DNA of 47,563 nt from a virus. Under the pieces are notes generated by a model, which was not told the DNA's origin, made no database searches, and saw nothing but the letters and a program-made list of their open reading frames with translations. This document shows, piece by piece, positions 3,045 through 47,563 of this stretch. Numbering within the stretch: the first letter of the stretch is position 1; each line of letters starts with the position of its first letter. Made by a program: the position numbers and the translations under genes. The DNA is taken from positions 1 to 47,563 of the IMG/VR virus record IMGVR_UViG_3300046714_000550, one strand, 5' to 3'.

Positions 3045-3232
3045 CGCCCATCGAGCAAGAGCTGAGGCAGGCGCTGCGCGAGGCGGCCGGCAAGCTCGAC
3101 CGGGCGGCCGGCGCGCTGCGCGAGATAGGCGGCTATCGCGGGCTGGCGTCGTTGCTGGATAGGTGCGCCTCGCGGGCGCTGCAAGCGCTGGAAGATGACG
3201 CGCGCAGCGGCGCGGGAGCGCGCGAGTGGTGA
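3041..3232 (+). CDS. hypothetical helical protein (63 aa)
   Basis: Unrecognised, Ala/Arg/Glu-rich, predicted all-helical (LRQALREAAGKLDRAAGALR), no membrane segment. Starts at an ATGA overlap and ends at 3230-3232. Part of the same coupled run as the sigma factor. Confidence 0.5.
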   Translation: MTPIEQELRQALREAAGKLDRAAGALREIGGYRGLASLLDRCASRALQALEDDARSGAGAREW

Positions 3233-3342
3233 GCGGCCGGAAGATCGGGGCGGCCCGGCCCGTGGCGGGCTTGGCCGCCCCCTTCTCCCGCCCGCTTGGC
3301 CGCGCACGGTGCGCGGCAGGCGACGGCGGCAGGGAGGCGAGC

Positions 3343-3683: not shown

Positions 3684-3699
3684 GCCAGGCGCCAGGACA

Positions 3700-3736
3700 C
3701 GCGGGCCCGGCCGGCAGCTCGCCAGCCGGGCCCGCG
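3700..3736. terminator. hairpin terminator between convergent operons
   Basis: Perfect 12-bp stem: left arm 3700-3711 (CGCGGGCCCGGC), loop of 13, right arm 3725-3736. It lies between the + strand operon ending at 3683 and the - strand operon ending at 3742, so it can serve both. Neither side has a clear U-run, so termination may be weak or need Rho. Confidence 0.6.
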
Positions 3737-3741
3737 GTCGT

Positions 3742-3960
3742 TCAAGGGCGCGGCGGCGGAGCGCCAGGCACACACAGGCTGCAGGCGTGCCACGGCCCAC
3801 ACACGCGACCGTCGCGGCCGGTGCGCGCGGTCGCCCCGCACACGCAGACCGCATATCCACCCGGCGTGCCGGCCGGATGAAGCACGGCGTGGGAATGGAC
3901 GCTCGCCAGCTTGCTGCGCACCGAGGCCGCCGCGCGCTGGTCGGGATCGAGGCGGCTCAT
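3742..3960 (-). CDS. small Cys-rich protein, last gene of the recombination operon (72 aa)
   Basis: Unrecognised. The C-terminal half has CVC, a further Cys about 14 residues on, then CSLC, giving enough cysteines for one zinc site. The ATG overlaps the stop of the upstream gene (ATGA). The stop lies just before the shared hairpin at 3700-3736. Confidence 0.6.
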   Translation of the reverse strand: MSRLDPDQRAAASVRSKLASVHSHAVLHPAGTPGGYAVCVCGATARTGRDGRVCGPWHACSLCVPGAPPPRP

Positions 3961-32772: not shown

Positions 32773-32812
32773 CCGGCCGCGGTTGCAGGCCTAGCTGTGC
32801 AACCGCGGCCGG
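32773..32812 (-). terminator. strong hairpin terminator after the coat gene
   Basis: Perfect 15-bp stem: left arm 32773-32787 (CCGGCCGCGGTTGCA), 10-nt loop, right arm 32798-32812. It starts 20 bp after the coat gene's stop on the - strand. A short T-containing stretch (TGTCCTTG) follows but no long U-run. This matches the common arrangement in which a partial terminator after the coat gene lowers expression of the genes beyond it. Confidence 0.8.
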
Positions 32813-43717: not shown

Positions 43718-43965
43718 GGAGACTCCAAGGTAGCGCGCCGCGCTCGGGCGAGGCGCTCGACGTGTTTCTTCCAGGCCTGGTCGGGTGAGAGCCCGCCGGC
43801 CTGCACGGGTTCCGCAAAGTCCGGGTGCTCGTGCAGCAGGCCGTGCTTCCTGAGCAGGCCGAGATGGCTGGTCCTGCGTGCGCGCGCAACCTCAGCCTTG
43901 CGCTCGCGCTCGCGCTGCTGCAGCTCGGCGGCGCGCGCGAAGAGTTCAGCCTGAGAGCGCAGCAC
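43714..43965 (-). CDS. hypothetical basic helical protein (83 aa)
   Basis: Unrecognised; a long charged helix at the N-terminus (ELFARAAELQQRERERKAEV), then RRTSHLGLLRKHGLLHEH and a helix LSPDQAWKKHVERLARARRA. AAGGAG precedes the GTG by 6-7 nt, and the start lies 20 bases inside the loader gene's end. The SPDQAW element resembles SPEQAWTRV in the neighbouring loader, perhaps a shared short motif. Confidence 0.55.
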   Translation of the reverse strand: MLRSQAELFARAAELQQRERERKAEVARARRTSHLGLLRKHGLLHEHPDFAEPVQAGGLSPDQAWKKHVERLARARRATLESP

Positions 43966-44446
43966 GCTGCTCTCCTTCGGGCAGCGAGAGCATCGTGCGC
44001 GCGGTCGCGACGAGCCGGTCGCGCTTCACGAGGAAGGCGCGCGCGAACCCGATCCTCATGTCCTCCGCGCGGCCGGTCTGCAGCGCGTGCCATCCACCGA
44101 CGCTGTCGACAATGCCCCAGAGAAAATCGCCGACCTCCTCGCGCGCCTCGCGGTAGCACTCGGCGTCGTCGTAATGGCCCGGCATCGCCGCGGCCACGCG
44201 CGTCCACGCCTGCTCAGGCGAGAGCTCGGCGCCGGCCGGAAGTTGCGCGCCGACGATCTGCGACATCAGCTCGGCGATGGTCGGGAAGAACTTGCTGTGC
44301 AGGACGTGCTGGCGCGCGGCGAGCTCGAGCTGGTCGATGGGCGCGTGCTGCAGCGCTTCACCGAAGGCCGCGAGCGTCTCGGGTCCGATGTTCGCGTTGG
44401 GGTAGCACGCGGCCAGGTACTTGATGACGTCGTACAGCGATTTCAC
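43946..44446 (-). CDS. G39P-like replicative helicase loader/inhibitor (166 aa)
   Basis: The N-terminal domain has the pattern YDVIKYLAACYPNANIG, ETLAAFGEALQHAPIDQLEL, then RQHVLHSKFFPTIAEL (45-60); the K/S-FFPTIAE element after a helical bundle is typical of SPP1 G39P and related phage proteins that deliver the host DnaB-type helicase to the phage origin. The C-terminal part (70-166) is longer and helical. It directly follows the DUF1376 replication gene (GTGA overlap), which supports the role. Confidence 0.65.
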   Translation of the reverse strand: MKSLYDVIKYLAACYPNANIGPETLAAFGEALQHAPIDQLELAARQHVLHSKFFPTIAELMSQIVGAQLPAGAELSPEQAWTRVAAAMPGHYDDAECYREAREEVGDFLWGIVDSVGGWHALQTGRAEDMRIGFARAFLVKRDRLVATARTMLSLPEGEQRAALSG

Positions 44447-45276
44447 TTGGGCGGCTCCGGCGTGTGTTGGTCGAGCATGGACTTGAACTCCTTGAGCGCC
44501 TGCATCGCGCGCGGCAGCGGCGCGTGGCCGTTGCCGCTGCCCTCGCCGTGCACGCAGCGGTTCCACTGGGAGCGCAGCGTTCCGAGGTTGGCGCCGCGGT
44601 CGGACCAGAACGGGTCGGTCAGGTGAACCTCGGCGCGGCGCAGGGCCTCCTGCACGTTGCCGCCGGCGAGCTTCAGGATCTCGTTGACGTGGGCCCCGTC
44701 CTTGGCGCCCTCGAAGCTGTACTTGGCGCCGTCGCGGTGGCTGGCGAAGAGCCCTGACCAGCCCTGAATGAACTCCGCCCGCGGGGCCTGCTCGGGCAAG
44801 GAGAGACCACCCGCAGGGTGCGTCTCTCCTTGAGGAAGGCCACCCGCAGGGTGAGCCTTCCTCCTACCTGAAGGAGAAGATGAAGAGCTTGGCCGCGGCT
44901 TTCCGGTCGGAACCATCGGCTTAGCAGCGGGTTTTCCTGCCGGAGGACGGCCTCCTTTCCGCCCTTTCTCCGACTGCATGGCCCTGTACTTTTCCTGCTT
45001 CTTGCGGGCTTCGTCGATGAACCCGATGTTCCAGAACGCCCCGTCCCGAAAGCAGAGGTAACCCACGGCTTTCCAGACGTCCGGCCAGTCGGCCTCGGGG
45101 ACGCAGGCGATGCGTCGCAGGCGGTCCTCTTCGGCGGGCAGGCGGCCGTGTCGCCAGGCCGAGCAGGCCAGCGCGAGGAAGGCCCCGCGCTCCTGTGCCG
45201 AGAGGCCGGCGGTGTCGGCCATGAACTGATCGGGGTAGAACTGGAAAGCCGGTGAGGGCTGCTTCGCGCTGGGCAT
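44443..45276 (-). CDS. DUF1376 (YdaU-type) replication protein (277 aa)
   Basis: Residues about 11-95 match DUF1376: FQFYPDQFMADTAGLSAQER, GAFLALACSAWRHGRLPAEE and FRDGAFWNIGFIDEARKKQE. Members act as phage replication initiators or organisers. A basic, Pro/Ser-rich linker (96-165) contains the repeat HPAGGLPQGET / HPAGGLSLPE, which at the DNA level is the tandem hairpin element at 44798-44863. The C-terminal 110 residues are helical. SD GGAG precedes ATG 45276; an in-frame GTG at 45372 is less convincing. Confidence 0.7.
   Translation of the reverse strand: MPSAKQPSPAFQFYPDQFMADTAGLSAQERGAFLALACSAWRHGRLPAEEDRLRRIACVPEADWPDVWKAVGYLCFRDGAFWNIGFIDEARKKQEKYRAMQSEKGRKGGRPPAGKPAAKPMVPTGKPRPSSSSSPSGRRKAHPAGGLPQGETHPAGGLSLPEQAPRAEFIQGWSGLFASHRDGAKYSFEGAKDGAHVNEILKLAGGNVQEALRRAEVHLTDPFWSDRGANLGTLRSQWNRCVHGEGSGNGHAPLPRAMQALKEFKSMLDQHTPEPPK
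44798..44863. repeat. two tandem hairpins with identical tips inside the DUF1376 gene
   Basis: Hairpin 1: 44798-44831; outer arms AAGGAGAGAC and GTCTCTCCTT. Hairpin 2: 44832-44863; outer arms GAGGAAGGC and GCCTTCCTC. Both carry the same upper stem-loop CACCCGCAGGGTG (5 bp, GCA loop) and each has one unpaired base at the same place after that stem. Outer arms differ between the two but stay perfectly paired. The two abut with no gap. They lie over the low-complexity linker of the protein. A replication origin, packaging or RNA-processing element is possible. Confidence 0.85.
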
Positions 45277-45409: not shown

Positions 45410-45760
45410 CTACGGTTTTCCCGGATTCAAGTCCAGCTTGCTGCGCCAGACGAACACGCCCTGCGCGAGAGCCCAGACGCCGAAGGTGCCGGGCGGCAGT
45501 CCGGCCTTGCGACCGAACGCGCGCACGGCTGTGCGCACGGTGCGGGCCGCGCGCTCGGGGTCCATGTTGTTCTGCTGCAGCGGCACGCGGAAGCCCTTGC
45601 CGGGAGCCAGCGCCGCGGCCCTGTCGAACAGCGCCTTCCACGCACCGGAGCTGCCGCTGAGTCGCAGGCCCTGCACTCCGTCCATCGGCTCGTCGTCGCC
45701 GATCTGGTCGAGGTCCACGGCCGAGCGCTGCGTGGACCGCAGCTTCCTTGGGCGCGGCAT
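45410..45760 (-). CDS. hypothetical protein (116 aa)
   Basis: Unrecognised. Middle region LFDRAAALAPGKGFRVPLQQ then NNMDPERAARTVRTAVRAFG and a C-terminal VWALAQGVFVWRSKLDLNPG, an alpha/beta mix perhaps built for nucleic acid. The ATG overlaps the GroES stop (TGATG). A 133-bp gap follows before the DUF1376 gene with no clear promoter in it. Confidence 0.65.
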   Translation of the reverse strand: MPRPRKLRSTQRSAVDLDQIGDDEPMDGVQGLRLSGSSGAWKALFDRAAALAPGKGFRVPLQQNNMDPERAARTVRTAVRAFGRKAGLPPGTFGVWALAQGVFVWRSKLDLNPGKP

Positions 45761-46167
45761 CAGCTCTCTCCGGTCTGCGCGGCCGCGACCTGCGAGCGCA
45801 CGGCGACGACCTCGTCCTCGCCCAGCAGCAGCAGGTTGGCCTCCTCGCCGCCGAGCTGCAGGCCGGCGTAGGCGCCGAAGAGCACGACGTCGCCCGGCTG
45901 GAACGGCACGAGCTGCGGCACGCCGTTGCTCGGGTCCATGTCCAGGCGCAGCATCTCAACCTGGGTCGCCTGCCGGCCGCACTCGTTGCCGACGGCGAGC
46001 ACGACACCTTCGTTGGGTTTCTCGCGGGCCTGCACGTCATCGGGCAGGAGCACGCCGCCCTTGCTGGCCTTGGCGGCTTCGACGCGCTGCACCAGCACGC
46101 GCTTGCCGACGGGCCTGATGATCGTGCGCGGCTGCGTGGCCGGCTGCGGTTCAGGGAGTGCGCTCAC
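45760..46167 (-). CDS. groES: phage GroES-like co-chaperonin (135 aa)
   Basis: Residues 18-125 follow the Cpn10 fold: RPVGKRVLVQRVEAAKASKG, the mobile loop ending GGVLLPDD (37-44; VLL in place of the GroEL-binding IVL), EGVVLAVGNECG (53-64), and FQPGDVVLFGAYAGLQLGGE (89-108) then NLLLLGEDEVVAVR. An insertion (65-88) lengthens the roof region. Phage GroES proteins such as T4 gp31 cap host GroEL and enlarge the cage for coat protein. No GroEL is present, so it should work with host GroEL. Extra N- and C-terminal tails. GTG start overlaps the upstream stop. Confidence 0.85.
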   Translation of the reverse strand: MSALPEPQPATQPRTIIRPVGKRVLVQRVEAAKASKGGVLLPDDVQAREKPNEGVVLAVGNECGRQATQVEMLRLDMDPSNGVPQLVPFQPGDVVLFGAYAGLQLGGEEANLLLLGEDEVVAVRSQVAAAQTGES

Positions 46168-46977: not shown

Positions 46978-47531
46978 TGGTCTGGGGCAAGCCAGGTCCG
47001 TGCCCGCGCTGCAACGGGAAGCACCAGAAGCGCATCACGCCCGGCAGCGGCTCGGTGCAGCCGTACTGCACGGAATGCCAGAAGGCCTACGCCGCGAACT
47101 ACCGCAGCCTGCACAGCGACGCGATCAAGACCCAGAAGCGCGACCGCCGCAAGCTGGAGCGCGAGACGGCTCCGCTGACGCCGCAGAAGATGCGCCGGCG
47201 CGAGAGGCTGGCCGAGCGCGAGCGCGCGGCCGCCGACCGCAACCACTTCAAGCGCTCGATGCCGAAGCCCGAGGACAACACGTTCATGCCGGTGGCGGAG
47301 ATCCCGAAGGATCGTCGCCAGGCGGCGGGCAAGCGTCCGCAGAACCTGCGCGGCGACCTCGTGCTACCGATGACGCCCGAGCTGGTCTCGCTGCTGGACG
47401 AGCTGCTGCAGTTGCAGCACTTCGGTCTGACGCACGAGGCCGTGGCGCTCACGATGCTGCGGCAGAACTGCGAGCGCGAGATGCTCTTCTGGCACGATTG
47501 CGTGAAGCCCGTGGTGGCGACGCTGAAGTGA
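46977..47531 (+). CDS. zinc-ribbon protein crossing the circle junction (184 aa)
   Basis: CPRC at 9-12 and CTEC at 31-34 form a zinc ribbon of the kind that opens phage HNH proteins (VQPYCTECQKAYAANYRSLH), but no HNH catalytic histidines follow. Residues 45-110 are a basic, Arg/Glu-rich helix; the C-terminus is a helical domain (TPELVSLLDELLQLQHFGLT, EAVALTMLRQNCEREMLFWH) that may dimerise. The ATG overlaps the previous stop. The end of the gene is duplicated at 1-95 by the terminal repeat. Confidence 0.65.
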   Translation: MVWGKPGPCPRCNGKHQKRITPGSGSVQPYCTECQKAYAANYRSLHSDAIKTQKRDRRKLERETAPLTPQKMRRRERLAERERAAADRNHFKRSMPKPEDNTFMPVAEIPKDRRQAAGKRPQNLRGDLVLPMTPELVSLLDELLQLQHFGLTHEAVALTMLRQNCEREMLFWHDCVKPVVATLK

Positions 47532-47563
47532 ACAGCCTGCTGGATCGCCGAGGTCCGCGTCGT
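47437..47563. repeat. right copy of the 127-bp end repeat
   Basis: Identical to bases 1-127. It contains the last 30 codons of the 184-aa gene and the first 12 codons of the next + strand gene (GTG at 47528), which continues at the left end of the window. Confidence 0.95.
47528..47563 (+). CDS. N-terminal fragment (second copy) of the 71-aa protein
   Basis: The first 12 codons of the gene at 92-307, repeated because of the end overlap and cut by the window edge. Not a separate gene. Confidence 0.85.
   Translation, partial: MNSLLDRRGPRR

Follow-up and report, generated by a model that had tools for sequence, protein, structure and literature searches.

Two long hairpins that abut within an open reading frame raise the question of what a phage genome might encode at such a site besides the protein. 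The window, that is, the whole 47,563-nt stretch of DNA that was analysed, is an IMG/VR virus record with an exact 127-bp direct terminal repeat (1-127 = 47437-47563) and therefore probably represents a circular, complete genome. The original prediction described two adjacent hairpins of 32-34 nt with identical upper stem-loops, differing but fully paired lower stems and the same unpaired base, which coding needs alone would hardly explain, and favored a lambda-like origin of replication in the linker of the initiator gene. Most of this geometry is borne out (Table 1). The hairpins, 34 and 32 nt long, jointly occupy 44798-44863 without a gap, and the same 13-nt tip, CACCCGCAGGGTG, is found in both (44808-44820 in hairpin A, 44841-44853 in hairpin B), with a tip-to-tip distance of 33 bp and no further copy in the whole 47,563-nt window. 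The triloop reads TGC on the sense strand and, equivalently, GCA on the antisense strand. The lower stems, AAGGAGAGAC/GTCTCTCCTT in A (10 bp) and GAGGAAGGC/GCCTTCCTC in B (9 bp), differ in 5 of the 9 comparable pairs, counted outward from the tip, and all changes are swaps between A-T and G-C that leave every position paired. The two hairpins also agree in the position of the bulge; contrary to the original prediction, however, the unpaired base differs between them, being C in hairpin A (44821) and A in hairpin B (44854).

Table 1. Features of the hairpin locus and its surroundings (positions in the window)
Feature	Position	Strand	Description
Hairpin A	44798-44831, extendable to 44797-44832	(-)	34 nt; second in gene sense
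Hairpin A structure			10-bp lower stem, 1-nt bulge, 5-bp tip, 16 bp total; triloop as in hairpin B
Hairpin B	44832-44863	(-)	32 nt; first in gene sense
Hairpin B structure			9-bp lower stem, 1-nt bulge, 5-bp tip, 14 bp total
Pyrimidine-rich tract AGCTCTTCATCTTCTCCTTCAGG, ~6-nt period (CTTCNN x3); proposed strand-opening tract	44867..44889	(-)
Candidate initiator-binding dyad TTCCGACCGGAA	44901..44912	(-)	5-2-5; weak, tentative
Candidate initiator-binding dyad GGAGGCCGTCCTCC	44942..44955	(-)	weak, tentative
Synonymous-site island, proposed origin	44806..44967	(-)	codons ~104-157, ~160 bp
DUF1376 / YdaU-like putative replication initiator gene	44443..45276	(-)	277 aa
DUF1376 domain, residues 11-71	45064..45246	(-)	predicted winged-helix-like
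Next gene, helicase-loader-like	43946..44458	(-)	phrog_2289 helicase loader, E 5e-6; phrog_9804, E 6e-10

The 101-nt segment containing the hairpins folds with a free energy of -59.8 kcal/mol (z -4.85), none of 200 dinucleotide shuffles being equally stable, and the pair ranks fourth among the 70-nt loci of the genome by fold stability. When the protein was held fixed and codons were drawn from the usage of the phage, 848 of 20,000 recodings (4%) were equally stable (z -1.8); the excess of stability is weaker under this constraint because the peptide HPAGGL by itself favors the tip. The codons of the hairpins are rare, with a codon adaptation index (CAI) of 0.12 over 24 codons, compared to a minimum of 0.28 and a median of 0.81 in six other genes. 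Locally, the signal of codon choice is stronger than that of fold stability. The strongest folds of the genome lie elsewhere, near 3.2-3.8 kb (3231-3300; 3696-3765), and another very stable inverted repeat, a perfect 15-bp stem with a 10-nt loop, is located at 32773-32812.

The very stable RNA fold, along with the fact that transcription of the gene runs through the hairpins and the presence of rare codons and a Shine-Dalgarno-like AGGAGG directly ahead of them, could indicate that the hairpins act in RNA, as an early-mRNA structure with a role in the pace of translation, in mRNA decay or in pausing of RNA polymerase close to the origin. No T run follows either hairpin (the sense strand past hairpin A reads GCCCGAGCAG, and past hairpin B, hairpin A starts directly), hence neither is an intrinsic terminator, and no Rfam 15 family matches above the gathering threshold anywhere in the window. 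A UNCG tetraloop on the mRNA was rejected because it requires a register that breaks the stem, the actual fold being the triloop TGC on five pairs. Translational bypass or frameshifting was rejected as well, given that the reading frame is uninterrupted and no slippery site was noticed. Considering also the loop rule and the fixed position relative to a 6-nt tract that are described below, we regard a role in RNA as quite improbable.

The host gene itself points to replication. The protein matches PF07120 (DUF1376; E 9e-8), and its best PHROG match is phrog_9327, 'primosomal protein' (E 2e-11). The AF2 model of the DUF1376 N-domain is winged-helix-like (pLDDT 92); the top matches in a fold search with this domain were mostly winged-helix proteins, including the plasmid initiators 4pt7 and 4pta, none of them at E <= 0.001, and no relatives of solved structure were found by sequence. 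The hairpins are located in the linker of the gene, which is predicted to be disordered, with pLDDT mostly below 60 across residues ~120-170. The order of this gene and the loader-like gene that follows is that of O and P in lambda. Downstream of other DUF1376 genes, most genes have no PHROGs match, one encodes an HNH endonuclease and one, in L182, likewise matches phrog_9804 (E 2e-4); judged by these matches, a loader is thus not a general partner of DUF1376 genes. Near the replication genes, the phage also encodes a GroES-like co-chaperonin (45760-46167; phrog_3188, E 1e-14).

The composition of synonymous sites sets the linker apart from the rest of the gene. GC3 drops from ~0.95 to ~0.4 at an island with GC3 of 0.33-0.58 and CAI of 0.07-0.36, compared to GC3 of 0.75-1.0 elsewhere in the gene. 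No other internal 30-codon stretch in the 48 likely coding ORFs has GC3 < 0.6; the remaining low values are at ORF starts and probably reflect a start called too early. The island coincides with the disordered linker, reaches well past the hairpins and takes in the tract, and a GC3 minimum is found at the corresponding place in 64 of 77 homologues. In length, the 44806-44967 island is similar to ori-lambda.

Searches of phage records and IMG/VR with the protein, the DNA and the exact pattern of the hairpins found no close homologues, the closest having only ~35-40% identity confined to one domain, and accordingly, covariation was judged on distant relatives only. We compared 132 DUF1376 genes with dissimilar linkers. 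The discovery set consisted of distant DUF1376 genes collected via domain alignments from IMG/VR and a few phage records and reduced to 81, with 602 segments of neighboring ORFs as controls; a further 51 linkers, dissimilar to the discovery set, were gathered as an independent set since the loop pattern described below was noticed post hoc. Many linkers share a layout that, in gene sense, starts with dyad repeats with an 11-bp periodicity (e.g. CAACGACCGTTCAACGACCGTTG, CACGCCCGTG, AACCCGGCGGGTT), continues with a tract of 6-nt period, such as (ACAGAT)n, (CCTAAC)n, (CACAAT)n or (CTTCAT)n, and ends, in many relatives, with one or two hairpins. The linker peptides, for example, DTDTDT, NPNPNP, QSQSQS and SPSPSP, are unrelated among the genes, and therefore the regularity resides in the DNA. 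In 80 discovery linkers, periodicities of 6, 11 and 12 nt exceeded the 95th percentile of the controls in 55, 44 and 51% of the cases, respectively, against 5-11% for lags of 3, 5, 7, 8 and 9 and 20% for lag 4. The independent set gave 88% for 6 nt and 71% for 11 nt, with 6% for lag 5 and 0% for lag 7.

Hairpins in these linkers are both frequent and of a particular kind. Perfect stems of at least 8 bp occur in 27.5% of the linkers and 1.7% of the control segments. In 24 kb of discovery linker sequence, there are 20 hairpins with sense-strand loops of 3-4 nt that begin with T and end with C (TAAC, TGAC, TAGC, TATC, TAC, TTC), or 0.84 per kb compared to 0.02-0.03 per kb elsewhere, and 18 of the 20 are closed by a C-G pair. 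This T..C class is enriched 23-fold over the control, as opposed to 0 to 3-fold for all other types of loop ends, and the complementary G..A loops are not enriched in the linkers. In the independent set, T..C hairpins again are overrepresented (0.65 vs 0.04 per kb, 13.7-fold), all at linker nt 169-206, and T..A loops are frequent too (7 genes). Over both sets, the enrichment is ~20-fold (combined Fisher p 4e-19), with the qualification that some linkers are related, L024 and L032 for instance having a hairpin in common, so that not all events are independent. Relative to the tract start, the hairpin positions are bimodal, with one mode at -60..-20 nt, which corresponds to the dyad repeats, and the other at +20..+60 nt.

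The original prediction made retention of pairing in homologues the touchstone for a folded structure. Where the hairpin exists, pairing is maintained under complete change of the stem sequence, but a hairpin by the strict T..C criterion is present in only about a quarter of the DUF1376 linkers. In 27 loop-aligned linkers, inner pairs 1-5 take all four Watson-Crick types; given that inner pairing was the criterion by which these linkers were selected, the variety of the pairs is the informative part. The near relatives L153 and L160 differ by one compensated pair. In 28 of 30 genes (L024-L267), the T..C loop starts with the third base of a codon despite the differing peptides, which could stem from a peptide constraint (a P-x-G turn), shared descent or avoidance of stop codons.

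Read on the antisense strand, the T..C rule of the sense strand becomes a GN(N)A loop with a C-G closing pair. DNA loops of the GNA and GNNA types closed by G-C pairs form exceptionally stable minihairpins (PMC4686876). The strand-specificity of the loops thus points to a single-stranded DNA hairpin formed, as judged from sequence, on the antisense strand. Two observations speak against a role in RNA: the loops of all relatives obey a single known stable-loop rule, and do so only on the antisense strand, and an mRNA function does not explain why the position of the hairpin is tied to the 6-nt tract.

How do hairpins A and B fit into this layout? The tract preceding them in gene sense is unique in the genome when 3 mismatches are allowed, and it matches the place and the approximate sequence of the homologue tracts GCTCTTCATTCTTCATCTTC, GCTCTTCAATCTTCATCTTC and GCTCCTAACCCTAACCC, the first two of which, from L110 and L113, are very close to it. 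It is only ~50% A+T, and its lag-6 score of 0.58 lies under the 95th percentile of the controls (0.62). Upstream of the tract there are only two dyads, unlike each other, one of which, TTCCGACCGGAA, has a center resembling the CAACGACCGTTG iterons of other phages; the iterons of this phage accordingly are weak. For the purpose of this analysis, we define the DUF1376 post-tract hairpin as a stem of at least 6 bp, with a bulge allowed, that has a sense loop TN(N)C and starts ~20-60 nt past the tract start. Hairpins A and B both fall under this definition: they start ~58 and ~26 nt from the tract start, respectively, the distance in relatives being 19-60 nt with one exception, and L152 carries a T..C-loop hairpin, CCACCCTACGGGTGG, at the corresponding place. 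The distance, the loops and this counterpart lead us to assign A and B to the post-tract element, of which this phage has a duplicated and long version (14 and 16 bp). In their order relative to the tract and in their type of loop, A and B resemble this element rather than iterons.

The competing possibility is that the two hairpins are the iterons, namely, two 13-bp palindromes 33 bp (three 11-bp turns) apart, bound as double-stranded DNA by DUF1376 dimers, with incidental outer stems. Two identical dyads at helical spacing, the similarity of the tip to the iterons AACCCGGCGGGTT / AACCCAGCGGGTT of L061, L124 and L025, and the absence of good iterons elsewhere in the linker of this phage are all compatible with this arrangement. 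However, the iterons of relatives precede the tract in gene sense, whereas hairpins A and B come after it; the T..C loop is common to the post-tract hairpin of L152 and not to iterons; and iterons would have no need for paired 9-10-bp outer stems of differing sequence. We therefore consider the iteron interpretation unlikely.

Exact paired tips also occur in 12 bacterial DNA stretches from several phyla, mostly as tandem arrays, and the hairpin segment consists of rare codons, as might be expected if an in-frame mobile or tandem palindromic repeat, similar to the bacterial CACCCTGCGGGTG arrays and functionless in the phage, had been inserted. Nevertheless, the codon island exceeds the hairpins and covers the tract, the phage has no other copies, and hairpins with like loops and unrelated stems are found at the corresponding place in other DUF1376 genes, which makes such an insertion highly improbable. 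The tip CACCCTGCGGGTG forms these tandem hairpin arrays in bacteria (Anaerolineales, Proteobacteria, Clostridia, Bacteroidales, Syntrophomonas and others, representing several phyla), mostly in apparently non-coding DNA (L009-L020), and is far commoner than the reversed control in the array-bearing genomes. PF07120 had no match in 71 genomes of the class with tandem tip-repeat members and none in control genomes either, so that this comparison carries no information.

Taken together, the gene order of primosomal protein and loader, the GC3 island, the periodicities of the linkers, the enrichment of T..C hairpins and the disordered linker are the reasons why we think that the hairpins probably belong to a theta-replication origin embedded in the linker region of an initiator gene that the phage itself carries. 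Under this model, the winged-helix DUF1376 domain would bind the dyad repeats on the upstream side, and this binding, combined with negative supercoiling, would open the adjacent tract. The downstream hairpin could then extrude on the antisense strand, with a C-GN(N)A-G loop of the exceptionally stable minihairpin kind; the folded strand would resist re-annealing, helping to keep the bubble open, and might mark the site for helicase delivery by the putative loader, the product of the next gene. An inverted arrangement, in which a purine tract (GAAGNN) follows the iteron-hairpins on the + strand, was dropped given that the order of iterons, tract and hairpin is constant in gene sense. The unconvincing iterons, the low periodicity of the tract, the presence of the hairpin in only about a quarter of the linkers, the nearly constant codon position of the loop, the low identity of the nearest homologues, the lack of any report of DUF1376 origin activity in the papers searched and the flat GC skew count against an embedded origin; the skew, which had been proposed as a check over the circle, has no turning point at 44.8 kb of the circular contig.

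An origin within an initiator gene is of a known kind. Ori-lambda lies in gene O and consists of iterons plus an A+T-rich region (PMC5043065, PMC6022878). The phage locus resembles it in the placement of the proposed origin within the initiator linker and in the helicase-loader-like gene directly downstream. A further parallel, dyad-symmetric iterons ahead of a proposed strand-opening tract, is evident in many relatives, and this phage has two tentative dyads and a candidate tract; in lambda, an imperfect palindrome likewise follows the A+T-rich stretch. In contrast to lambda, the initiator domain here is DUF1376, comparable to O by analogy only, the tract is a 6-nt repeat rather than an A+T-rich region, the post-tract hairpins have C-GN(N)A-G loops, and the iterons are weak. 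The lambda-like origin in the initiator linker gains strong comparative support from the dyad repeats, 6-nt tracts and hairpins shared by unrelated phages, the loader-like gene and the island, but the hairpins themselves look like post-tract elements and not like sites at which DUF1376 recognizes iterons. A mechanistic parallel, again by analogy alone, is the promoter of the N4 virion RNA polymerase, a small DNA hairpin, its 3-nt loop stabilized by a sheared G-A pair, that is extruded by supercoiling on one strand only and in which the variable stem bases matter for pairing alone (PMC4496689); there the hairpin is a promoter, and here it would be part of an origin.

Whether this applies to the family at large is a more tentative matter. 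We consider it possible, short of probable, that the DUF1376 proteins make up a widespread family of phage initiators, each encoded by a gene in which an origin of three standard parts is embedded. The third part would be a previously undescribed strand-specific DNA element, a C-GN(N)A-G hairpin formed by the antisense strand upon opening of the tract, with a role in directing the loading of helicase or primers. Within the open-access literature searched, both the layout shared across the family and the strand-specific hairpin appear to be new: these papers contain no report of origin activity for a DUF1376 gene, and among those mentioning DUF1376, none is about an origin, judging by titles and abstracts.

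The DUF1376 family, whose members are common in phages and prophages and to which YdaU of E. coli K-12 belongs, is of unknown function and would thereby gain a testable role. In the Rac prophage, YdaU, a DUF1376 protein, is similarly followed by YdaV, an ATP-binding DnaC-like protein, and the ydaU linker (gene at 1421119-1421976; L187:5120-5977) contains TGTTCAAACA/TGTTTGAACA repeats, a AAAGATACAGAT / AAAGATACAGATAAAGATC tract and a C/G-rich inverted repeat. Rac carries an active origin, oriJ (PMC3945230), the position of which we did not find in the literature searched. The sequence features of the ydaU linker make it a candidate for oriJ, and if the model is correct, they amount to a concrete prediction of where oriJ lies in Rac. 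More generally, if DUF1376 linkers are origins, the sequences of many phage genomes would directly reveal where replication starts, the strand-specific hairpin with its fixed loop rule would be a new, testable origin element, and the odd low-complexity peptides of the linkers, including SPSPSP, QSQSQS and HPAGG, would be by-products of selection at the DNA level. In four genes of the family (L054, L070, L072 and L173), the linker is replaced by a domain with the motif YFIT..DxVKIGYSKNPWxRLSELR, the DNA of which is full of TAGTAGCTACGGTAGC palindromes and perhaps represents a different kind of origin.
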